A model generated the notes under the pieces. That model had not been told where the DNA came from. It saw nothing but the letters and a program-made list of their open reading frames with translations, and did no database searches. 24,775 bases of DNA, from the IMG/VR virus record IMGVR_UViG_3300042691_036083, positions 1-24,775 of that record; one strand, 5' to 3'. Both the position numbers and the translations under genes were made by a program. Every line of letters begins with the position of its first letter. Within the stretch, counting starts at the first letter, position 1. This stretch comes from a virus. Below are positions 974-22,835 of this stretch, piece by piece.

Positions 974-1600
974 TTAGACCTCCTGACTTGTGGCTAATTT
1001 ATTTTTTGAATTACCATATGTCGGAGTTTTTCTATGACAAGCTTCGCACAAAGTTCTCCCATTTGTTAAATCAAATCTTAGTTCTGGATAATCTGAGAAT
1101 TTAGCGATATGATCGGCATTTAAAATACCACCGCGTTGGCCGCATAAAACACACGTATAATTATCTCTAATAAAAACCTGCTTTCTCCAATATTTATATT
1201 CAGCAGATGCTCTTATTAGTTTATTCTTAGAAGTTTTTCCGTTATTCAGATAGTGATAAGCACATTTTTTACAACAAAATTTAGCAATACATTTTCTATA
1301 TGGACGAACCTTAAATATCGTATTGCAATTTACGCAATTTAATTCCGTTTTTCCACCTTTCCAATTACCATTTTTTTCTCCAGAACTCTCTGGTCTTTTA
1401 ATCCCTCTTCTATTAAAATATATTATTTTTAATTTTCTATAGTTATCTAGCCTATCCTTAAAAGGATAGATACCCCTTTGTGAATTTGTATAACAACTTT
1501 TGGAACAAAATTTAATAGTTTCCCAATATCTATTAGAATGACTTTTCTTTTTAAAAAATTCATTGTTACAATAATTACATGATTTAGATTTTTCAGTCAT
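974..1600 (-). CDS. HNH homing endonuclease inserted at the fibre stop codon
   Basis: This 208-aa protein has two N-terminal treble-clef-like cysteine clusters (CNYC...CSKSC near residues 8-36, and CVNC...CCKKC near 89-113). A C-terminal HNH nuclease domain follows: [10 protein letters not shown], then NADHIAKF, then [14 protein letters not shown]. Such free-standing HNH proteins cut a DNA target and spread by gene conversion. The gene is visibly AT-richer than the fibre genes on both sides. Its last residues, LATSQEV, repeat the last residues of the upstream fibre (LATSQE), because a 14-bp sequence is duplicated at both ends of the insert. The ATG at 1598-1600 has AGGA upstream, lying in the end of the fibre gene. 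The TAA touches the ATG of the glycine-rich adhesin. The gene is therefore fitted between two tail genes without breaking either. Confidence 0.9.
981..994 (-). repeat. 14-bp direct repeat, copy at the 3' end of the inserted HNH gene
   Basis: On the minus strand this reads GCCACAAGTCAGGA and continues into GGTC TAA ATG, supplying the AGGAGG ribosome site for the adhesin gene. It is identical to 1608-1621 at the end of the fibre gene. Both copies are read in the same frame as ATSQE. One further upstream position differs (TTA versus TTG, both Leu), so the similarity extends past the exact match. Confidence 0.85.
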
Positions 1601-1603
1601 AAT

Positions 1604-4600
1604 TTATTCCTGACTTGTGGCCAAAACTCGCCATTGGTTGTTAGATTGGTTATATAATATTCCGGCATAGAATAACTTATTGGCCACCGTAGTAGTAGGT
1701 AAAGTTACTCCAACCGCTCTATAACCAGACCAAGCTAAAGTCTTGGCAACACCAGTATCCATAATTTCTATGATCATGGTCTGTTTGTCATAAGCGGTTC
1801 CCGAAGGAACCGAGATAGTTGTGTTTACGGCAAGGCCCGTACAACTGAATACATCATATAAAACAGAAGGTCTTAACCCAGTACTAGAAACGGCGTATTC
1901 GACTGTCTTTTTGTATCTCTTATTCTCAAAAGTTTCTGGGTTTGCTAAAGTAGCGACAATCCCAGAAGATGGAAGAGTAAGAACAGTAGTTCCGGTTGGA
2001 ACGATCGTGACGGAATAAGCCCCACTAGTCGCGAAAGTACCGCTATTCGCAATTGAAATTGTAGCAGTATTAGCTGGTTGTGTAACAACCACCCGATTTA
2101 TTGAGGTGACTGAAGCCGCCCCCAAAGTTGGGGCTGTTAATGTCGCCCCACTCTGTAATACAACACCACCGGAGCCCGATAGGGCTCCGAATTGAGCTAA
2201 CCCACTCGATACCGTAGCTAGACCAGTTATAGAACCGCCCAATGAAATTGAAGCTCCATTGATCGAAATAATTCCGGTCGGAGTATAAGCCTTTACTAAC
2301 TTCCCTGTGGTCCCATCGAACAATACTATTTGGGAATCCACACTAGAAGAGGGACCAACTACGTCGCCTGCAGCACCAGAAGCGGCAACATTAGCGTCTG
2401 AGATAGCAGTATTTAATTGAGCCAAAGTGAAAGAGCCAAGACTTGCTGTAGTACCAGTGGTTGTTACGTGTCCTGTTAAGCCGGGATTTGTCACATATCC
2501 GGCGGTAAAGTTAGCCCCTGTTCCCGTAATATTAGTTCCCACTAACACCGAGGGTGTCCCCAAATTTGGAGATACCAAGGAGGCTCCGCTCGAAAATACT
2601 AGATTACCAGAGCCGGTTTCATCGCTCATTATCCCAGCGAGCTGGGAAGAAGTGGTCGTTGCAAATTGGTTCAGTCCGCTTGAGGTTACGGCAATTCCAG
2701 TGAGTGAACCACCTAAAGATAAACTAGCTCCATTTATGGAAACCGAACTATTAGTTAGAGAGGCATTGCCGATATTAGTTAGCGTATTCGCTGACCCAGA
2801 GATACTCTTATTTGTCAGAGCCTCTACATTAGCTAGGGTGGAAGCCGTACCGGAGGCTGGTAAAAGGAGAAAGGTATTGGCTGACCCGCCCAAAGTGATC
2901 GAATACGCCCCACTGGTGGCGAACGTCCCACTATTGGCGATAGTAATAGTCGCTGTATTAGTGGGCGATGTAATCGCCACCTTATTTACAGAAGTAGGAG
3001 TTATCTCGCCAAGTGCCAAAGTAATAGCAGGTGTTGTGCCACTATTTGCAACTACACCACTTATACCATTAGCGGTAGTAACCGAAACTAAAGTTACAGT
3101 ACCAGACCCACCACCAGAAGGAGTGGCCCAAGTACCATCACCTCTCCAGAATGTGGCAGAACTAGCAGATGTCCCACTATTTAGTCTAGTCACTGGTAGA
3201 TTACCAGTAGTACTATGTATTGATAAACCAGAACAATTTACTAAGTTGCCAGAAGATGGGGTCCCTAAAAATCCGCCATTTAAGACCGGACTTCCAGAAG
3301 AACCAATATTAGTGGCTAAAGCCGTACTTATCCCAGTTCCAAATCCGGTGATTGAACCAACAGCGGGGGTAATAGTTAATCCGCTAGCTGCGGTGACTAA
3401 ACCTTTAGCATTAACTGTTACTATAGGTGATTGAGTAGAAGAACCAAAAGTTCCGACTCCAGAATTAACGGTTGCTAAGGTTAATGCCCCAGAACCAGTA
3501 ACGTCGCCAGTGTGTGTGACATTACTAATGATACCAGAATACAAAGAATTTACAGCGTTATCTCCGGTATTCACTCCGCTCGAAGATCCGGAGAAATTGC
3601 TAGCGGTGATCGCCCCACTAAAGACTGGTGTCACCAAAGTAGAAGAATATAATACTGCCCCGCTGGCTAGAACGATACTACCAGATCCACTCACATTACC
3701 AAATTGGCCAAGGCCACTTGATACAACCGCCAGCCCACTTAAAGACCCTCCTAAAGACAAAGAGGTTCCATTTATGGTGACCGAACTATTGGTTAGGCTA
3801 GCATTTCCTATCTGGGTCAGCGTATTCGCTGCCCCAGAGATTGATTTGCCAGAAAGAGTCTGGCTATCTGAGTCACCCACTACGATCCCTGTCGGGGCCG
3901 CTACAGTTGAGGCTACACCACCTGTTACAACCACAATCCCAGTAGGCGTAAACGCTTGAATTAGTTTACCAGTAGTCCCACTGAACAAAGCAATCTGAGA
4001 AGATACACTTGAAGATGGGCCGACTACATCTCCGGTTCCAGCGGAGCCAGACGATGAAATTGTTACATTTGATCCGTTATTCGTTATAATTATGCCAGAA
4101 CCAGCAACAATCCCAGTAGGGGATATAACGTCAGCATCTGAAATAGCCGTGTTTAACTGAGCCAAAGTGAATGAGCTAAGGCTCGCGGTGGTCCCAGATG
4201 TGGTTATGTGCCCAGTTAATCCCGGATTGGTTACATAACCGGCGGTGAAATTAGCCCCTGTCCCAGAAATATGGGTTCCAACCAGAGCGGTTGGAACCCC
4301 AAGGTTTGGTGAAACTAAACTAGCTCCGCTCGAAAACACCAAATTACCAGAACCAGTTTCGTTACTTATTATTCCAGCTAGTTGGGCAGAGGTAGTCGTT
4401 GCGAATTGGTTTAATCCACTAGCTGTGACAGCTAAACCATTTCTAGTTCCACCTAAAGCTAAAGATGTTCCATTTATAATGACTGCCGGATTAGTTAAGG
4501 CAGAATTAGGAATATTGGTTAGAGTATTAGTGGACCCGCTTATGACTTTATTAGTGAATGTCTCACTACCAGCCAAAGTGGTTAAAGTACCAGATGTTGG

Positions 4601-6202
4601 AATATTAACTGAACTGTTACCAGAGGCAACAACAGTAATTGAATACGCCCCGCTCGTCGCAAAAGTCCCACTATTTGCGATAGTAATGGTGGCAGTATTC
4701 GTTGGTTGTGTAAACACAACCTTATTTATTGAGGTAGCGGAAGCTACACCTAATATTGGGGCAGTTAGTGTCGGCGAAGCTGAGAACACTAAATTACCAG
4801 AACCTGTTTCCCCTGAGATTAAAGTGGATAGGCCCGTACTAGTTGGAGTAGTTAAAAACGAGACAACTCCACTCCCCAACCCAGAAATTCCGACCAATTC
4901 TCGCCCAGCCGAGGTGAAAGAAGCTAGACTTGCTGCACCCGATCCAGTAAAATAAGGAACTTTATCTGCCGCAGAAGTTAAACCGGCTAAAGCCGTCAAC
5001 TCTGTATCCTTCGGTTGGTAGCCGTTAGTTGCGTCAACTTCGGTTAAATAATCCCCAAGTAATGTATCAACTTGGGTGGTGGTATAGTAACCACTATGTG
5101 TATGGGAAAAGGCAGCTACATCTGATCCAATAACCAACCCTAAATTTTCTCGGGCTTCTCCAACATTTGATAATTCGCTTAAGTTACCCAGAATGGAAAG
5201 ATAAGTTCCGGTGGTTCCATTGTACTTAGTAAATGATAAAGAAGTAGTCCCTACAACTATGGTTCCAGTAGTCGCTAAAACCCAAGCGGTTCCGGCGTTT
5301 ATTGAGCCTTCCTCAACATACATATACATACCGGCGGTAATTTCACTGTTTGTATCCGCGTCAGAGGTACGAGTCCATGATGTAGATTTAGCTGAATAAA
5401 TCCCGTTTTGAGAAGCTGCGCTTTGATCTTTTACTAAGACTCTATCATTGGCTATGGTTTGATAGCCGTCTATTGAAAGAAGGCCATATAATGCAATATT
5501 AGAAGTTGTAGCCGCAGATACGGACGCTTTAAAGTCAACTAGCCCACCCGCATAAGTATCTACGTAGTACTTAGTAGCAACGTCTGTATTACCAGAAGGA
5601 TTCGGCATACCTGTAATAGAGCCGCCAGTTATGGTGACGTTACTACTGGATTGGGTCGCCATAGAACCCAACTCAAGATTCGTTCTTGCGCCCGCCGCTG
5701 TAGATGCTCCTGTACCCCCATCATTGATGGATAAATCAGTTATACCAGTTATCGACCCACCCGTTATGGAAACGCCCGAAGGTGACTGCGTAGCTAAAGC
5801 TGATAAATCAGCAATATCCGAAGCGACTACGACTACGTCACCCGTTCTGCCAGCAACAGAATGGACATAAGAGTCCACTGGTATAGATAGGGCGTCATTC
5901 CCATCTAGGTAAACATATTTTTCCGCAGGAACCGTAATGAAAACATTACTAGGTCCCGACAAAATCAGTCTGGACCCCGTCGAACTTTTTATAACAGAAT
6001 CTCGGGTTAAAGTATCTGGCCCGTATGTCCCCAATCCTATTTCAAAGTCTGCCCCGTTCTCTATGCAATAATAGGTAGTATCCCCACTACTCAACACATC
6101 CGAAAAGGATAAGAACCTTCGAGGAGTTGAGCCTAAAGTAATGGTCCCACTACCAGCCGTAGTAGAAACTTGTTTAACTCTATCGCCTAACCTAAAAGTC
6201 AT
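1604..6202 (-). CDS. Very long repetitive tail fibre protein
   Basis: This 1532-aa protein is rich in Ser, Gly, Thr and Ala. Its N-terminus has the phage-fibre pattern [17 protein letters not shown], then [30 protein letters not shown] and [10 protein letters not shown]. This pattern is common in the anchoring part of phage tail fibres. A second fibre module follows near residues 200-330 ([45 protein letters not shown]). The middle is built from repeats: [19 protein letters not shown] occurs three times, [10 protein letters not shown] twice, and a block of about 120 residues twice. A short C-terminal domain ends in [12 protein letters not shown]. It probably forms a trimeric fibre that reaches the host receptor. 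The ATG overlaps the stop of the 62-aa gene (ATGA). The stop region carries the duplicated 14-bp sequence and the HNH insertion. Confidence 0.93.
1608..1621 (-). repeat. 14-bp direct repeat, copy at the 3' end of the fibre gene
   Basis: This is identical to 981-994. Here it is followed by a new TAA stop and a short spacer to the HNH ATG, and its AGGA acts as the HNH ribosome site. The pair brackets the inserted homing endonuclease gene. Confidence 0.85.
2385..2770 (-). repeat. Fibre internal repeat, C-terminal copy
   Basis: This encodes a block of about 120 residues running from a NASLTNSS-type start through [33 protein letters not shown] and [17 protein letters not shown] to [13 protein letters not shown]. 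The same block occurs again at about 4125-4510. The two proteins are close, but the DNA differs at many third codon positions. This points to an old duplication kept by selection on the protein. Edges are approximate. Confidence 0.8.
4125..4510 (-). repeat. Fibre internal repeat, N-terminal copy
   Basis: This is the partner of 2385-2770, about 1.74 kb away. The protein matches at [35 protein letters not shown] and [17 protein letters not shown], while silent differences are frequent. Edges are approximate. Confidence 0.8.
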
Positions 6203-6387: not shown

Positions 6388-7589
6388 GCCCGAGTCCTTG
6401 AAGATGGACGGGTTGAACTATTCAAAGTATAAGAAGCGGCTTCAGTACCGTCTAGTTTCTTAACTGAGATAGTTACGCCCGAAATGGCGAACTCAGTTAT
6501 ACTTTGTTGTATCATATACAAGGCTTGAGCTAAAGTCATCTCGCTACCTGAGGTAGCGTAGCTTTCCGTCAAAGTATGAGTAGCTATGCCTGTTGGGATA
6601 TAACTAAATTGACTATCTAGGTTAGCTGAGGCCAACCCTACCGCATTTCTCACGCCAGAAGCGGTTAAACCACCACTCGCAGAATTTTCAAGCATATTTT
6701 CGGTAAACTGATAATTTTCCCCATCATATTGCAGACCAGTATCTATCTTTCCGAGAATGTCATTTGAGTTTTCAACCATAACAGAAAGATCATTAATTTC
6801 TGAAGAGGTAGCCAAATCTTCTTGAATCCATGAAACTAATTCAGTCGATACTGCCGCAACATTAACTGCATCATTTTCGATTTCATAGACATAAGATCTA
6901 ATAGACCCATTAATTAAACCAGAAGGTAACTGACCAGATATAGAGGCGAGTTGTGCATCAAGATTGGCCGAACCTAGACCTAAGATCTGTCTCATTCTAT
7001 CTTCAAAAGAGCCTTCAACATCAACCATTTGGGCTGTTACAGCAGAAACTGACCCAATATCATCATGTATATCATACAAATCCCCAGAGGATGCAACGAT
7101 AGATGGAAAAGTAGTAGATAAAAACCCAGAAGGTTGAGTATAGCCAACCATAGGCATACCACTTGTTTGTATACTGTTCCAATAAGTTGTATTAGCTGGA
7201 GCGGGCTCAAATTGTATCTCTGAGGGAGGACAATGTCCTCCAGAAGCTAGCACTGAAACTATCAGCGAACGAGCACCAGTATTAAATCTAGTGTTAGCTA
7301 ACTGAATTTCATAGATGCCGGGATGATAGGTAGAATCAACCTCTTTAAATCTGCACTTCCCCGATGTAGGAGCTGCGTAAGTTCCTAGTGTTGTAATAGA
7401 TTCAATGGTAGAACCAGAACTTGCATAAGAAGTAGTTGTCGGCTCATTATCGGCTATAGCCGAAATATAAAGTCCGGAAGAATCATGAGCGACCCCAGTT
7501 TTTCCACCACCGATAGTAGAAGAAGTATCTGATACTCTGACTCTTAAAATTACAGATGAAGTTCCGTCTTTGTAATTAAACTTAGCCAT
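6384..7589 (-). CDS. Tail/baseplate-type structural protein
   Basis: This 401-aa protein has an N-terminal beta domain (about residues 1-135: MAKFNYKDGTSSVILRVRV, VAHDSSGLYISAIADNE, GIYEIQLANTRFNTGARS). The pattern is seen in phage proteins with a BppU/Ig-like N-terminus. A linker with WNSI and GFLSTTFPSI follows. Two related segments come next, LGSANLDAQL near residue 208 and GLASANLDSQF near 320. The C-terminal part (ISVKKLDGTEAASYTLN) resembles the short beta-hairpin tails of such proteins. GGAGGA before the ATG at 7587-7589 supports the start. The gene overlaps the previous gene by eight bases. It is likely a tail-tip or fibre-base protein; the exact part is unknown. Confidence 0.8.
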   Translation of the reverse strand: MAKFNYKDGTSSVILRVRVSDTSSTIGGGKTGVAHDSSGLYISAIADNEPTTTSYASSGSTIESITTLGTYAAPTSGKCRFKEVDSTYHPGIYEIQLANTRFNTGARSLIVSVLASGGHCPPSEIQFEPAPANTTYWNSIQTSGMPMVGYTQPSGFLSTTFPSIVASSGDLYDIHDDIGSVSAVTAQMVDVEGSFEDRMRQILGLGSANLDAQLASISGQLPSGLINGSIRSYVYEIENDAVNVAAVSTELVSWIQEDLATSSEINDLSVMVENSNDILGKIDTGLQYDGENYQFTENMLENSASGGLTASGVRNAVGLASANLDSQFSYIPTGIATHTLTESYATSGSEMTLAQALYMIQQSITEFAISGVTISVKKLDGTEAASYTLNSSTRPSSRTRA

Positions 7590-9316: not shown

Positions 9317-10921
9317 TTATCTTGGTTTGTAGACGAATTTCATCTGTCCACAATCCCAAATTTTTAACATACCATTTTCGTAACCAGAGTTACCGCTAAA
9401 TGTCATCCTATGAAAAGTTTTTGATCCGTTAGTCCATTTGAATGAAGGATATGAAGTGGATGACTCAAAACCTAAGGAGGGCAAATAATCACCAGAGCCA
9501 TATCTCAGATCCACAAAGGTAGAAATCTGAACATCTCCAACGATCCTCTTAAAAAAGGAAATAAGGCGACTAAATCCGCCGACGATAGAAATTCCACTCT
9601 TAGTAGCAAATCTACTTATCTCCCAACCGTCTTTTATCTTCTTCATACGAAGACACGCTAAAATTTGGCCATCTTTAGATAGAGTGAAACATCGGCCTTG
9701 TCCCCTCCCCATTAAGTGATTCTTACCCAAAAACTCAGAACCTTCTTTTTTATCAGATTCTTTCAGCTCTAATTTTCTAGCATATAATCTTTCGTTTTTC
9801 CCAAGCTTATTTAAAATTATAGACTTAATAATTTCTCTCTTGCTGAGAAGTTCATCTTCCCTAAAAAACAGTGGAATATATCCTTCGTCGATATAGGTTA
9901 ATCTTTTCCTAACGTGATAATCGTCTTCTTTATGAAAATCGCTATGCCAAAAAATTCCGTCGACCTCAATAACTAATTCTCCAACAACAAAGTCGGCATA
10001 ATAAGATTTAATCTTAATTTGCTTAATATACTTTTCCCCGATTTCTATTAGAATCTCTTCCATGATTTTCTCTAATGAACTCATCTTTGGTTGCATACTG
10101 ACCGCTATATCCCAACCGTGCCTATTAACTAATGTATTAAAATGGCTTTTCGAGAATCCTAATTCTTTTGCCCACTCTGCTATACCTTTGTTTTCGTGTA
10201 AGTTAATTTGTCCAGCGGCAATTTTAGTCTCTAATCCTTTGTCCTGAGCCATACGAGCAATTTCTGGAACTTTCATCGCATGATCTACGCCATATTTTTC
10301 AATATTAGTAGATTTAATTTTTCTCTTAACCTCTTCTAACTGGAATACATTCTCAACACCATATTTCTCCATAACCTTATCTTTACAATCTTGCGACACA
10401 AAATAACATTCGGTCCCGAATTTTTCAAGATTAGTAGCTCTAACTTTATTTTTAATCTCCTCACTAGAAGTGGGGCTAACGCCCCCGTATCTCTCCAAAT
10501 TAGTGACTTCCATCTTAGCCCTTACTTCGGGTGATTGAAACACATTTTCTACACCATATTTCTCTAAACAAGTTTTCCTAGATTTTTGGCGAACTTCCTC
10601 ATTTTGTTGTGGAGAGGGCACCCCATATTTCTCCACATTTGTGGAGGCTATTTTTTGTTTAACAGATTTCAACTGAAATACATTATCCACTCCATATTTA
10701 ATCTGGTTCATTTCAGCCATTTTTTTATACTTACATTTTTTACAGCAATCATTAGCTATAACGCGATGGGCTATCTCCCTTCTCTTCTTGGAAGATTCAT
10801 AGATAATATGGCAGTAATCGCACCCCAGCAAAATTGTCTTACTTGACTTCTCAGTAAGATCAGATAAAGTATAGCCAAATTTTTCCTTTGTTTCGTTTTC
10901 TAATAGCATCCGAGACCCCAT
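9317..10921 (-). CDS. Large free-standing homing endonuclease (repeat domain plus Vsr-like nuclease)
   Basis: This 534-aa protein has recognisable parts in order. Residues 34-63 hold a zinc-ribbon-like Cys set (C34, C37, C59, C60, C63). Residues 71-228 hold seven short repeats of the K-Y-G-V-E-N-V-F-Q type spaced by basic helices, a DNA-binding repeat known from phage homing nucleases. Residues 245-268 look like a helix-turn-helix (AEWAKELGFSKSHFNTL). Residues 281-375 are a Vsr/PD-(D/E)XK-type nuclease with D310, E319, D321, H326 and D328 (ADFVV, then LVIEVDGIFWHSD). Residues 380-534 form the C-terminal domain often attached to these enzymes (FLGKNHLMGRGQGRCF). The gene is AT-rich and stands alone between the capsid terminator and the next tail gene. 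It is likely a selfish element. An internal ATG at 10907-10909 has a better ribosome site (GGGG) than the first ATG. Confidence 0.88.
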   Translation of the reverse strand: MGSRMLLENETKEKFGYTLSDLTEKSSKTILLGCDYCHIIYESSKKRREIAHRVIANDCCKKCKYKKMAEMNQIKYGVDNVFQLKSVKQKIASTNVEKYGVPSPQQNEEVRQKSRKTCLEKYGVENVFQSPEVRAKMEVTNLERYGGVSPTSSEEIKNKVRATNLEKFGTECYFVSQDCKDKVMEKYGVENVFQLEEVKRKIKSTNIEKYGVDHAMKVPEIARMAQDKGLETKIAAGQINLHENKGIAEWAKELGFSKSHFNTLVNRHGWDIAVSMQPKMSSLEKIMEEILIEIGEKYIKQIKIKSYYADFVVGELVIEVDGIFWHSDFHKEDDYHVRKRLTYIDEGYIPLFFREDELLSKREIIKSIILNKLGKNERLYARKLELKESDKKEGSEFLGKNHLMGRGQGRCFTLSKDGQILACLRMKKIKDGWEISRFATKSGISIVGGFSRLISFFKRIVGDVQISTFVDLRYGSGDYLPSLGFESSTSYPSFKWTNGSKTFHRMTFSGNSGYENGMLKIWDCGQMKFVYKPR

Positions 10922-15977: not shown

Positions 15978-18900
15978 TTAGTAGCAATTCCGAACTGCGT
16001 CCACAAACCAAGCTGGGCCAATATACTCAGCACTTATTTTATCCTTGCCTTCATGCCTTTTCGAAAACCCGCCGTAAGTGCATGAATCAACATCCTTAGC
16101 CACCTTTATACTTCTAGCCCCCATATTCGCCATGATTAGAGCGGAGTATCGGTCCTTCCTCATTCTTCCCTTTTTATTAGATCCCGTTTTTAGTTCGGGA
16201 GTATCCCATTTATCCCTGCCGGTGGCCGTCTGTGTTATTTCTATGAGGACTAACTCATTCTTGAGTTCTTCAATTTCCGTGACACAATCCTCCAAAGTAT
16301 CATATAGTTTATTGTTGGCTTTATCTTGCTCTGCCGCTAAAGCTAAAATGACTGGGTCGAATTTGGGAAACAAGATGGCCTTATCCTCTAGATCCTTTCT
16401 TAATCCGTGATTCGCTTCAGAGGTCCAATCAGCCGAGGCGAAGTTAACCATCTCAATAATATGTAAGCCTGATTCATCGTCGGACGGCTTTTCTTTCTTT
16501 TCATCTATGATTTGCCATATGGGGACTTCGTTCTCGTAAAGGTTCGAGGTTTCATGTAAAGCTTCGCTTACAGCTACACCACCCCCCTGAGAGTCCAACA
16601 TGATCCTTTCCGTAGGAAAGAGACGCATAAGGTCTCTTATTTTACGAGCACAATAAGAGTAGAAGTTATCTTCCTTGACTAAGCCTAATTTAACCCTCTC
16701 AACGTGTACATGCCTATTGATGGTCCAACTATGCACTACACGACGATGGTCGGGGTGTATTTCAACAATAACTACGGCAAAATTATCTACTTCAGAAGCT
16801 GGGTCGACCCCGATCACATACTTACAATCCTTCCGACCCACTAGGGTCGCATCAAAGACAACCAACCCCGATGGTAAATGGAGGGAGTTATTTTCACTAG
16901 CTACGCAAGACTCAATTAAGCTACGCTTAAAGAAACCCTTGCTGTCGGAGCAAAAAATTGCGGAATATTCCATATCAAAGATGCCGCTATGAACGCTAGC
17001 TCTACTTCTAGCAATATTGGCATCATCCATAAAACCTTTAGGGATTAACTCGTATGGTAATCTAATAACTGAGTAATCCTTCCAATTAAAATCAGCCGGG
17101 ATATCCCCTTTAAAAATCTCGGCCACCTTTCTAGGGTCTCCCTTAGAATTAATAATCTGTTTCCACTTTTTCCAGTAATCCGCAAAGAAGTGAAAATCGT
17201 AATAGGCCGTACCCGATATAATAATTTGATTCGATATTGCTAATGGATTTTGGTCTACTAAATTGTCTTGATTAATTCCTAATCTTTTAGCTTCCTTAAT
17301 TGAAGATTGTCTCTTTACATTATCGACTGTGTTAGCGGCCACGTTACCGAATCCAGCTAGTACTGTTTCGAATATCTCTCTATTATGGGAATTGTGTTGA
17401 ATAAAACCATTACCTATAAAAGTGTGGGTTTTAGGCATATGGAAATCATAGAGATGTTCTTGCTCTGGTAATAATTCAACTGACCTGACCCTAAATAAAG
17501 GTTTTTCAGTTTTGATGTATTCCTCGAAAAATGCGACAGCTTCCTCCCTACTTCCAAAAGATCCGAGATGTTTATTCTTATTAGCTACGCTGGTAGATAG
17601 ATTATATCTCGTAGTTTTTTTGGTTACGACAGATATTGTTGGTTTCTTTTTCCATAAGTAAGCGTTATCAAATTTGCCCCTCCATTTGATTATATCTAAT
17701 AGGTCAAATGCTTTGGCCGCATTAGTGCCTCTTAATCCTAACATATAACTTTTTCTATCGGATAATTCACTACTATTTTTTATTACATTTGAACAAGTTA
17801 TACCAAATTTAAGTAATAAAATTTGTAAAGTATCGGCCAATTCTTTGCTAGAAGTATAATAAGCAATCCCTATTCTTTTCTTTCCTTTGTCGTCATAATA
17901 AAAAGCAGATCCATCCCCCTCAAACAAGCCAGACAAAAAAGAAGCAATTATCTTTTTTGGAGATAGTAATATCCCACTAGGTACAGTTTTGTTCAAACTA
18001 ATATCATAGCTGACACCAAAATCTCTTAAAGCTGTTCTAAAATCAACATCGTTATACTGAATTGACCAACATCTTTTGCAGTCAAATCCTCTCTTATCAA
18101 TATAAGGTTCTTTCTCTACTATTTTCCAATCGAACTCACTAAATTCCGATAACACTTTATCTATTAATTCTTTATCGGTGTTAGTAATCTGAATGTAATT
18201 TCGGTTAGTAACCGTTCCTTCAGAGATTAATATGCCGATCAACCAAGCTAATTTTTCATCTAAGACATATCCATTTTTTTCTAAAATCCTATCTGGGAAA
18301 TAAGAATTAATATCTAAAGGTAAATGATCCTCGATCGTTAAATCTTTAGCCAATTTCCACCCATCTTTGGTCATAACCTGATGAATACTAGAACAAGAGA
18401 ATGAATACCCATTATCGGTTTCGATCCTATAAACATCCGTCTTAGGAGTTTTGAAGATTTGATCTGGAGTTTCTAATTCCCCATCGATATTTATTAGGTC
18501 ATAAGCATCACCAGATAAATAATCAGATAATTTAATTAGTCCTTGATCTGATTGAATAATTGTTGAAGATACGAGGCAGGCAAACTCGTCAACAACTAAA
18601 TCATGAGCCCTGTAACCCCGGATCTTATCCCCAGTACCAATTGGAATAGCTTTAATTGTACTATTGTTAATAACAAAGGTACAAACGTCAGGCGATCTAG
18701 TTGGCCCACTGTTTACATCGCACAAATCTCTTAGTATGGGAGCATTCTTCCAAATCCCTTCCATGTATTCATGTAAGAATCTCGATTGGCGAAAACTGGC
18801 CCCAGCTATCATGATCTTTCTATTTGGGAGTATCAAAGCCCTTAAAAGAGAATATAAGGCCAAAAGCCACGTTTTTCCCGCGCCTCTGGAAGCCACAAAC

Positions 18901-19148
18901 ATAGGAAATTTTCTGTTCCAAATCTCAGACAATAAAACATCTTGAAATGGCAACAGCTCAATATTCATTATGTGTTTACATGTAAAAGAAAAAAATTCAG
19001 GTCTAGAGAACAACCAAGCTATTTTCTTCTCAAACTCACTATCGTCATCACCCCTTAATATATCCAAAGGATTATAACTAGGTTCTTCCCTAGCATATTC
19101 CATTAGCCATGCTTCATTGAGTTGTCTTGTTATTTTAGACGATACCAT
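15978..19148 (-). CDS. terL: Terminase large subunit, interrupted by an intein
   Basis: This 1056-codon gene encodes the packaging ATPase-nuclease. The ATPase has Walker A (SRGAGKT, residues 87-93) and Walker B (DLVVDE, 183-188). The coupling motif SGT is at 645-647. The RNase H-like nuclease has D782 (VIGVDPASE), D852 (RIMLDSQGGG) and D999 (RKDRYSALI). Residues 191-586 are an intein inserted two residues after the Walker B glutamate; without it the terminase is 660 aa, normal for the family. The enzyme docks on the portal, drives DNA into the prohead and cuts concatemers. The ATG overlaps the end of the ClpP-like gene by 14 bases and uses an AGGA site inside it. Function requires splicing, because the intein separates the ATPase core strands. 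Confidence 0.95.
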   Translation of the reverse strand: MVSSKITRQLNEAWLMEYAREEPSYNPLDILRGDDDSEFEKKIAWLFSRPEFFSFTCKHIMNIELLPFQDVLLSEIWNRKFPMFVASRGAGKTWLLALYSLLRALILPNRKIMIAGASFRQSRFLHEYMEGIWKNAPILRDLCDVNSGPTRSPDVCTFVINNSTIKAIPIGTGDKIRGYRAHDLVVDEFACLVSSTIIQSDQGLIKLSDYLSGDAYDLINIDGELETPDQIFKTPKTDVYRIETDNGYSFSCSSIHQVMTKDGWKLAKDLTIEDHLPLDINSYFPDRILEKNGYVLDEKLAWLIGILISEGTVTNRNYIQITNTDKELIDKVLSEFSEFDWKIVEKEPYIDKRGFDCKRCWSIQYNDVDFRTALRDFGVSYDISLNKTVPSGILLSPKKIIASFLSGLFEGDGSAFYYDDKGKKRIGIAYYTSSKELADTLQILLLKFGITCSNVIKNSSELSDRKSYMLGLRGTNAAKAFDLLDIIKWRGKFDNAYLWKKKPTISVVTKKTTRYNLSTSVANKNKHLGSFGSREEAVAFFEEYIKTEKPLFRVRSVELLPEQEHLYDFHMPKTHTFIGNGFIQHNSHNREIFETVLAGFGNVAANTVDNVKRQSSIKEAKRLGINQDNLVDQNPLAISNQIIISGTAYYDFHFFADYWKKWKQIINSKGDPRKVAEIFKGDIPADFNWKDYSVIRLPYELIPKGFMDDANIARSRASVHSGIFDMEYSAIFCSDSKGFFKRSLIESCVASENNSLHLPSGLVVFDATLVGRKDCKYVIGVDPASEVDNFAVVIVEIHPDHRRVVHSWTINRHVHVERVKLGLVKEDNFYSYCARKIRDLMRLFPTERIMLDSQGGGVAVSEALHETSNLYENEVPIWQIIDEKKEKPSDDESGLHIIEMVNFASADWTSEANHGLRKDLEDKAILFPKFDPVILALAAEQDKANNKLYDTLEDCVTEIEELKNELVLIEITQTATGRDKWDTPELKTGSNKKGRMRKDRYSALIMANMGARSIKVAKDVDSCTYGGFSKRHEGKDKISAEYIGPAWFVDAVRNCY
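17391..18578 (-). mobile_element. LAGLIDADG intein in the large terminase
   Basis: This 396-residue intein begins with Cys1 (CLVSSTIIQ) and ends with FIGNGFIQHN, followed by Ser as the first residue of the C-extein. The full splice set is visible: Cys1, a block-B His at intein residue 66 (SSIHQV), penultimate His395, Asn396 and Ser+1. It should therefore splice. Inside lies a two-motif LAGLIDADG endonuclease: LIGILISEG (residues 113-121) and LSGLFEGDG (215-223), with acidic residues E120 and D222. Near residues 322-358 a segment with KHLGSFGSREEAVAFFEEY resembles an AP2-type DNA-binding module. The intein DNA is AT-richer than the exteins. It is a selfish element targeting the conserved Walker B coding region. 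Confidence 0.93.
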
Positions 19149-20168: not shown

Positions 20169-20817
20169 TTTTATCCCCTAAGAAACAACAGTCTTTACCT
20201 TGGCCATCAAGTTCTATTAAGTATCCAACATAACATTTTATAGTACTACTATCATCAACAACGGATACAGCATTCGTAGCTACAAAATAACTAGTTTTAT
20301 TTCTCTGATTACAAATAGTATACCTTTCAGAATAAGATATATTCTCTGTAACTGCATACATCCAAGCTTCGTGTACTCTTTTTTTATCGTCCGTATGAAT
20401 ACCGGCTAACCATCCAAACCCTTTCATCTCCTCACTATCTAAGCCAAAAAGTTCCCTGAGGCGGTCGTTTGACCAGACACATTTGCCATTTGTTTCACAG
20501 ATGTAGACCCCAATCTTAAGGTAGCGTTCCGATATTTGCTGCCGTATCTCCAACACGTCATGGGCGTTTTGAATGGCCTCGTTAAGGGCCTTAATAGTTT
20601 CCGCTGGGTTATCTCCGAAGGTAGTATGAAAACTATTCCCAAGCATAATAGAACGAGCTGCATTTTTTATAAGCCTCCGGCCTTTAGTGGCTACGCCAAT
20701 AAAGGCACCAAGTAAAAGAGAAATAGTGCCATAATTGTCAATCCAAAATTTAAGATCCACGAATGATATCGTCAAAGAGTGGGGCATAATGCTGCTCGTT
20801 ATCTTTAATAGATTCAT
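20146..20817 (-). CDS. Membrane-anchored PAS-domain protein
   Basis: This 223-aa protein has one predicted membrane helix near residues 27-43 (YGTISLLLGAFIGVA), followed by positive residues (KGRRLIK), so the rest is probably cytoplasmic. A helical linker (residues 70-100) leads into a PAS domain at about 95-205: KIGVYICETNGKCVWSNDR, FGLDSEEMKGFGWLAGIHTDD, YTICNQRNKTSYFVATNAVSV and KCYVGYLIELD. These match the PAS core, including the W/HPDD-like segment. PAS domains sense small molecules, redox state or membrane signals and usually control an attached output domain, but none is attached here. The listed start overlaps the HNH gene by 68 bases and has a weak ribosome site. A later ATG at 20785-20787 is an alternative. 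Function in a phage packaging operon is unknown. Confidence 0.82.
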   Translation of the reverse strand: MNLLKITSSIMPHSLTISFVDLKFWIDNYGTISLLLGAFIGVATKGRRLIKNAARSIMLGNSFHTTFGDNPAETIKALNEAIQNAHDVLEIRQQISERYLKIGVYICETNGKCVWSNDRLRELFGLDSEEMKGFGWLAGIHTDDKKRVHEAWMYAVTENISYSERYTICNQRNKTSYFVATNAVSVVDDSSTIKCYVGYLIELDGQGKDCCFLGDKNENYKRH

Positions 20818-20998
20818 GACATTTCTTACATAGGGTGATCAAGTTGAAAGGTTCATATCTTAATGAGGAAGCATCGGCCCAACGTCTAATATGATGTACT
20901 TGTAATTTTTTTCTAGATCTACATCCGGGCATCCTGCATCTTTTATCTCTTAGGAGACATTCCTTTCTCGCTTGGTTATAGGCGGGGCAATATCTCAT
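20750..20998 (-). CDS. Small HNH endonuclease of the packaging cluster
   Basis: This 82-aa protein is almost only an HNH domain: C21 and C26 (CRMPGC), the paired histidines H35-H36 (LQVHHIRRW), N52 (FNLITLC) and C57-C60-H61 (CKKCHE). HNH proteins of this compact type next to terminase genes are common in tailed phages. In phages such as HK97 they stimulate specific terminase cleavage during packaging. It is therefore more likely a packaging partner than a homing nuclease, although it lies among several selfish nucleases. The ATG overlaps the stop of the upstream small terminase candidate by four bases (ATGA). Family identity is strong, role inferred from context. Confidence 0.88.
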   Translation of the reverse strand: MRYCPAYNQARKECLLRDKRCRMPGCRSRKKLQVHHIRRWADASSLRYEPFNLITLCKKCHESIKDNEQHYAPLFDDIIRGS

Positions 20999-22412: not shown

Positions 22413-22835
22413 ATGAAAGTATGGTTAAGTGGGACAAGTGGGGCGGGTCTAGCAGCAGAGGTTGACCCAGTCGATTTTGGGCGAGTATCACGAATTAAGT
22501 GGTATTTAAGGAATGGGTACGCGACTGGTACAGTTGCGGGCAAGTCTATGAGACTTCATAGGTTCGTTATGATGGAGCACGATCTGTCAATAGTAATTGA
22601 CCATATTAATCGCGATAGACTCGACAACCGTCGCGAGAACCTGCGGCGGCTTACGGCGGTTGAAAACGCCAATAATAGAATCGACAACGTATTCGTCGAA
22701 GCCTTTGGCGAGACGCAAACTATTGCGGAATGGTCCAGAGACCCTAGATGCGGGTGTTCCTACGGGACCCTCCAAAAGAGGATCTACCGAGGTGACATGC
22801 CGGAGTTAGCTATCTTGGCTGTGGAGGAGTTATGA
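22413..22835 (+). CDS. HNH homing endonuclease (HNH_3 type)
   Basis: This 140-aa protein has the phage HNH layout: an N-terminal strand region (WYLRNGYATGTV), LHRFVM with H49, then IDHINRDRLDNRRENLRRLT with the catalytic D63-H64, N72 and N76, followed by AVENANNR. The C-terminal 45 residues (EAFGETQTIAEWSRDPRCG, TLQKRIYRGDMPELAI) form the small DNA-binding segment often seen behind this nuclease. Enzymes of this type are free-standing homing endonucleases in phages. The gene is the first on the plus strand after the divergent control region, with GAGGT before its ATG. Its stop overlaps the next ATG (ATGA). It could also serve a phage function, but the homing role is the usual one. Confidence 0.9.
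   Translation: MKVWLSGTSGAGLAAEVDPVDFGRVSRIKWYLRNGYATGTVAGKSMRLHRFVMMEHDLSIVIDHINRDRLDNRRENLRRLTAVENANNRIDNVFVEAFGETQTIAEWSRDPRCGCSYGTLQKRIYRGDMPELAILAVEEL

Follow-up and report, generated by a model that had tools for sequence, protein, structure and literature searches.

Gene order and repeats at the fibre end

The window analysed here, a 24,775-nucleotide stretch of viral DNA, carries three consecutive genes on its minus strand: a tail fibre-like gene of 1532 aa (1604-6202; phrog_11518 tail fiber protein), an HNH endonuclease gene of 208 aa (974-1600; PF01844 and PHROG HNH families), and a glycine-rich tail gene of 223 aa (302-973; PF21722). The fibre gene ends with GTT TTG GCC ACA AGT CAG GAA TAA ATT ATG, where ATG is the HNH start codon. 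The HNH gene ends with AAT AAA TTA GCC ACA AGT CAG GAG GTC TAA ATG, where ATG is the start codon of the glycine-rich gene and directly adjoins the HNH stop codon.

The 14-mer GCCACAAGTCAGGA (repeat R1) occurs exactly twice in the window, in the last fibre codons (copy 1; 1608-1621, minus strand) and at the end of the HNH gene (copy 2; 981-994, minus strand). The two copies are 627 bp apart, which is the length of the HNH ORF, and both are in one reading frame. A preliminary description of this DNA had placed the 14-mer at these positions and read it as ATSQE in both, and this was confirmed to the base. With the flanking Leu and Glu codons included, the match is 16/18 (TTG GCC ACA AGT CAG GAA vs TTA GCC ACA AGT CAG GAG). 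The same description had the downstream copy run on into the ribosome site and start codon of the next gene; the sequence indeed continues into AGGAGG (979-984, minus strand), the putative ribosome-binding sequence of the glycine-rich gene, which lies within the HNH codons (Q)EV, and into its ATG. In copy 1, AGGA (1608-1611) is located 7 nt before the HNH ATG, and at each of the two junctions 7 nt separate GGA from the start codon.

The length of R1 is unremarkable, since a 14-bp repeat is expected about once per 24.8 kb and the window contains 14 repeated 14-mers. It is the flush position at both gene ends that is not expected by chance: a 14-mer so placed at the two ends of a single gene has a probability of ~1e-5 (4^-14 multiplied by the possible placements). 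Flush repeats of at least 14 bp were found at 4 of 1414 control genes and at 1 of 92 HNH genes, the one in the window, and among these 92 only the window has its flanks duplicated at the DNA level.

A second repeat, the 9-mer AATAAATTA (R2), follows R1 copy 1 flush (1600-1608, minus strand) and directly precedes R1 copy 2 (995-1003, minus strand), so that the junctions read R1R2...R2R1. The fibre stop codon TAA (1604-1606) is contributed by R2 copy 1. The chance of R2 is ~1e-4 per test, counting the eight bases that it does not have in common with R1. R2 would fit either an element with 9-bp ends placed in a duplicated target of 14 bp or joining through micro-homology; in an A+T-rich insert, such a repeat is suggestive only. 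A longer duplication that would take in the first bases of the glycine-rich gene (ATGAC...TGAAA) was considered and rejected as weak, 65 of 3000 shuffles being equally good.

The HNH gene scores 25.1 bits against the PF01844 profile, above the curated cut-off of 21.4. Its domain comprises residues 150-191 (1028-1153, minus strand), in which C150, C153, H164, N180, C185, and C188, that is, the catalytic His/Asn and the zinc-binding Cys, are invariant among the aligned homologues. The G+C content is 29% in the HNH gene, 45% in the fibre gene, and 60% in the glycine-rich gene, and the composition of the insert is foreign.

Five endonuclease-type elements are present in the window, of which the HNH gene at the fibre end is one. 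The terminase large subunit gene (15978-19148, minus strand) contains an intein (PF14890) that has a LAGLIDADG endonuclease domain. A 534-aa homing endonuclease-like gene (9317-10921, minus strand; phrog_3339, DUF7487/DUF559) directly follows the major capsid gene; L258, L260, and L332 have related sequence in this position, and the site is therefore recurrently occupied. The remaining two are small HNH genes at 20750-20998 (minus strand) and 22413-22835 (plus strand), belonging to PF01844 and PF13392. None of the window's other nuclease genes has flank repeats of note.

Endings of fibre relatives and HNH homologues

A total of 116 HNH-free relatives of the fibre were collected from IMG/VR by two scans. 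Their C-terminus is strongly conserved as LPTTTVANK...YVGCIYN...WDVVAVxQE followed by one residue and the stop codon; in nearly all 116, that residue follows QE and is mostly A or V, with I, T, S, or L also observed. The window fibre stops at QE and is short only of this final A/V, and the missing V-stop is found at the end of the HNH gene. The fibres of L185, L188, L194, and L196 end exactly with QE-stop, and the shortened fibre is thus a tolerated, viable form. The preliminary description held that both neighbours were left whole; the fibre is essentially whole, lacking only its last residue, and the fibre-like HNH tail carries the putative start signal of the glycine-rich gene.

The most informative relative is L049, whose fibre ends VAVTQEV-TAA-ATG and is followed directly by a glycine-rich-type tail gene. 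Its GAGGTCTAAATG is identical to the junction of the HNH and glycine-rich genes in the window, and among 89 junctions compared with the stop codons anchored, L049 has the highest score. From this comparison, the downstream copy in the window fits a native junction, and R1 copy 2 is read as the native fibre end. The glycine-rich-type gene of L049 gave no BLASTP alignment with that of the window. The fibre gene passes without interruption to a comparable gene also in L040, L066, L067, L075, L082, L083, L094, and L187.

An exact empty site, ATSQEV-stop-ATG, was not found in IMG/VR. Close relatives identified through the capsid protein (65-77% identical) and a neighbouring structural protein have fibres with other C-terminal modules, and no direct twin was found among them. 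The evidence for the ancestral ending is therefore at the family level. The proposal in the preliminary description that an ancestral fibre ending in ATSQEV-stop was split by the insertion is supported at that level by the relatives with QE+A/V-stop and by L049. Its expectation for HNH-free relatives was borne out in the QE[A/V]-stop endings and in the TQEV-TAA-ATG of L049 before a glycine-rich-type gene, but not as an exact ATSQEV site. The HNH gene is absent at the fibre end in the 116 relatives, no HNH gene was found downstream of the fibre among them, and none is a close sister with both neighbours of the window.

The fibre has a modular build: the capsid-related phages L261, L269, and L283-L334 share its N-terminal part but have other C-termini, whereas its C-terminus belongs to a family that occurs in unrelated phages, among them mycobacteriophages such as Tonenili.

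The phage HNH genes of PHROG 1271, 5956, and 589 are similar to the window HNH gene in domain sequence but, among the homologues surveyed, lack the LATSQEV tail. The surveyed homologues terminate near TPTYGN..., and none of them ends with ATSQEV or carries LATSQEV; a homologue elsewhere with LATSQEV had been named beforehand as the finding that would speak against the proposed insertion. The fibre-like tail LATSQEV-TAA (974-997, minus strand) is unique to the window copy among them. No HNH homologue was confirmed from bacterial genomes.

The next gene starts between -40 and +15 nt from the HNH end in 36 of the 65 HNH genes with an identified next gene, and in 16 homologues from that set a motif resembling a ribosome site lies within the HNH end or immediately at it. 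As judged from such motifs, HNH tails carrying the putative ribosome site of the next gene are common in the family. In L079, an HNH homologue (2737-3399) lies directly before a related fibre gene, and the putative fibre ribosome site AAAGGAGG is in its last codons. Short leaders repeated between consecutive genes were also observed. In L160, the 16-bp leader TATAATTAAAACATGA is located at the junction of the HNH gene and the next gene (4302-4317), with the HNH stop codon inside it, and again at the following gene junction (4811-4826). In L112, an 18-bp leader including the start codon (TAACTAACTAGATATGAA) precedes two consecutive genes (7027-7044 and 7567-7584).

HNH tails resembling the end of the upstream gene

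HNH tails were compared with the ends of their upstream genes in a C-terminally anchored alignment, flush at both stop codons, with a BLOSUM62 score of at least 22. The anchoring was introduced once the pattern had been seen at a first look, and the six positives include the window, without which five remain. These six among 96 HNH genes are the window, L109, L149/L150, L154, L173, and L177. Permutation with shuffled pairs expects 0.07 of 96, and the control genes gave 7 of 2122 (Fisher 7.6e-6). The mirror test, comparing the HNH start with the start of the next gene, showed no excess, and the signal is therefore specific to the upstream gene end.

In L177, the upstream gene ends with ...YDVYSIAF and the HNH gene with ...YDTYSVAF, and in L149/L150, a collagen-type fibre ending with ...IRSTEMTF is followed by an HNH gene ending with ...IRTTEMTY. 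A glycosyltransferase in L109 ends with ...KIRVQKLLQILRERGIIN and the HNH gene with ...KIRVEEMMKVLKKRKII. In L154, an unknown 111-aa ORF with the end ...KLNTVKEFIDLMNFFIKIL lies upstream of an HNH gene with the end ...NLKTVKDFIKAMDLLIKIL. L173 is a weak case, in which a glycosyltransferase ends with ...SVLKLESVLKSK and the HNH gene with ...SVDILEKALKGK. The matching stretches are longer in L109 and L154, about 18-30 residues. The upstream genes are mutually unrelated and include two glycosyltransferases, a collagen-type fibre, and a small gene of a structural cluster. In every one of the six, the endonuclease gene lies at the 3' end of another gene, with the C-terminus of that gene on both sides.

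The DNA identity of the copies is 18/27 in L177 (where Ser is TCG in one copy and AGT in the other), 31/51 in L109, 24/39 in L173, and 70/109 in L154, compared with 14/14 in the window. The recurrence is visible at the protein level only, and the window alone shows it at the DNA level. A copied tail was not found in the 12 loci of named phages with HNH homologues, and no relatives of the host genes of L177 and L149 were found in named phages. For the host genes outside the window, the search gave no HNH-free relatives that would distinguish the native copy.

By comparison of protein ends, at least four or five further phage loci have an HNH tail with an apparent copy of the upstream C-terminus. 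This looks like a recurrent route for HNH genes to settle at gene ends, of which the window is the shortest, best-conserved, and presumably the youngest case. The arrangement had been called unusual in the preliminary description; this holds for the duplication at the DNA level, unique among 92 HNH genes, but not for tails carrying the ribosome site of the next gene, which are common, nor for the copied C-terminus, which recurs.

Origin of the duplicated end and comparison with known systems

It is likely that a free-standing gene of the HNH homing endonuclease type was inserted at the junction of the fibre and glycine-rich genes and left the fibre end on both sides. The ancestral fibre most likely ended with ...LATSQEV-TAA-ATG, and its last codons (CAG GAG GT) would have doubled as the ribosome site of the next gene. 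Because these codons would have served as both, an inserted element must preserve the fibre end as well as the ribosome site, and the 14-18 bp overlap at the two joins would preserve both functions. The upstream copy would close the fibre one residue early with a stop codon from the element, and its AGGA may serve the HNH start. The downstream copy would be the native end, now the HNH tail and stop codon, with its AGGAGG serving the glycine-rich gene. Selection is expected to keep both copies, because without one of them the fibre would be damaged or the next gene silenced. Homing of the HNH gene, and its mobility, are suggested by its family membership.

The origin of copy 1 may be seen differently. 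Local duplication during repair would be sufficient for the window, where the copies span just five codons and agree at 14/14 positions. The element might instead have brought a replacement C-terminus, which would now be the upstream copy, and pushed the native one downstream into the HNH tail. Fungal mitochondrial mobile ORFs have the same layout (PMC3630166), and the diverged DNA copies in L177, L109, and L173 fit a different origin as well as an old duplication; such import is possible for the diverged cases, and as a general account it is conceivable but rather doubtful. An HNH gene lying between two fibre copies, or with longer fibre DNA behind it, could also have been fused to the last fibre codons by a deletion. 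That just the last 14-18 bp remain is compatible with a longer ancestral copy, as are the longer stretches in L109 and L154, but this account requires two events and no larger downstream remnant was found at any fibre-relative locus, which makes it unlikely.

Resemblance by chance, with the HNH tail selected for a Shine-Dalgarno sequence, would draw on the recurrence of CAGGAG codons at fibre ends and on the frequency of ribosome sites in HNH tails. It is very improbable, because the common run includes GCCACAAGT, which is outside any ribosome site, ATSQE has 384 possible codings, and six such tails were seen where permutation expects 0.07 among 96. A group I intron or an intein, with the two copies as exon ends, might be suspected from the other mobile elements of the window, such as the TerL intein. 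An in-frame TAA lies between the fibre and the HNH gene, duplicated exon ends are not an intron feature, and covariance models gave no Rfam match in the window; this explanation can be practically dismissed.

Under the insertion reading, the other phage loci would be more diverged examples, in which an HNH gene sits at the 3' end of a gene that retains its C-terminus, and the displaced copy of the C-terminus has become the HNH tail. A plausible though tentative extension is a phage-borne class of free-standing HNH homing genes with no fixed target gene: each would enter at a 3' end and supply the host gene with a new C-terminus, either carried along or generated there, while the displaced native end turns into the tail of the nuclease. 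If true, this would be a phage counterpart of the fungal mobile ORFs, spreading without an intron or intein and leaving the host gene unharmed. Selfish nuclease genes of this kind must avoid breaking their insertion site, and using the last codons twice would be a solution that phages have found repeatedly. The signature, a nuclease ORF tail resembling the end of the preceding gene, could reveal insertions and their targets where no empty-site relative is available. The insertion is also predicted to be cleanly reversible: a deletion from one 14-bp copy to the other would give back the exact ancestral junction.

Free-standing HNH mob genes of T4-like phages, such as mobE between nrdA and nrdB, likewise lie between two phage genes, are read as part of an operon, and touch their neighbours (PMC2988022). 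In these phages, free-standing endonuclease genes are close-packed and overlapping, and expression signals of downstream genes are located inside the endonuclease gene (PMC2988022). The review of these mob genes, from which the stem 'duplicat' is absent, mentions no case of an upstream gene with its end duplicated (PMC2988022). No phage report of such a C-terminal duplication was found in the literature, for which open-licence papers were covered, and its absence there is unproven.

In fungal mitochondria, C-terminal duplication around an endonuclease ORF is described for atp6, atp9, cox2, and nad3 (PMC3630166), and related C-terminal duplications beside endonuclease ORFs have been reported (PMC6279837). 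The fungal mobile ORFs of Allomyces macrogynus atp6 and Glomus atp6, atp9, cox2, and nad3 are the closest known kind, with an endonuclease gene at the 3' end of the host gene and the C-terminus on both sides (PMC3630166). They encode LAGLIDADG or GIY-YIG endonucleases in mitochondria and have long, diverged copies, with the copy of the element fused to the host gene. In contrast, the window has a phage HNH gene and a copy of 14-18 bp, and the HNH ORF itself ends in the downstream copy, which includes the putative ribosome site of the glycine-rich gene. The pattern is real and recurrent, and connects homing genes of phages with a mechanism known from fungal mitochondria; its known kind is the fungal mobile ORFs, and its phage HNH form appears to be new.
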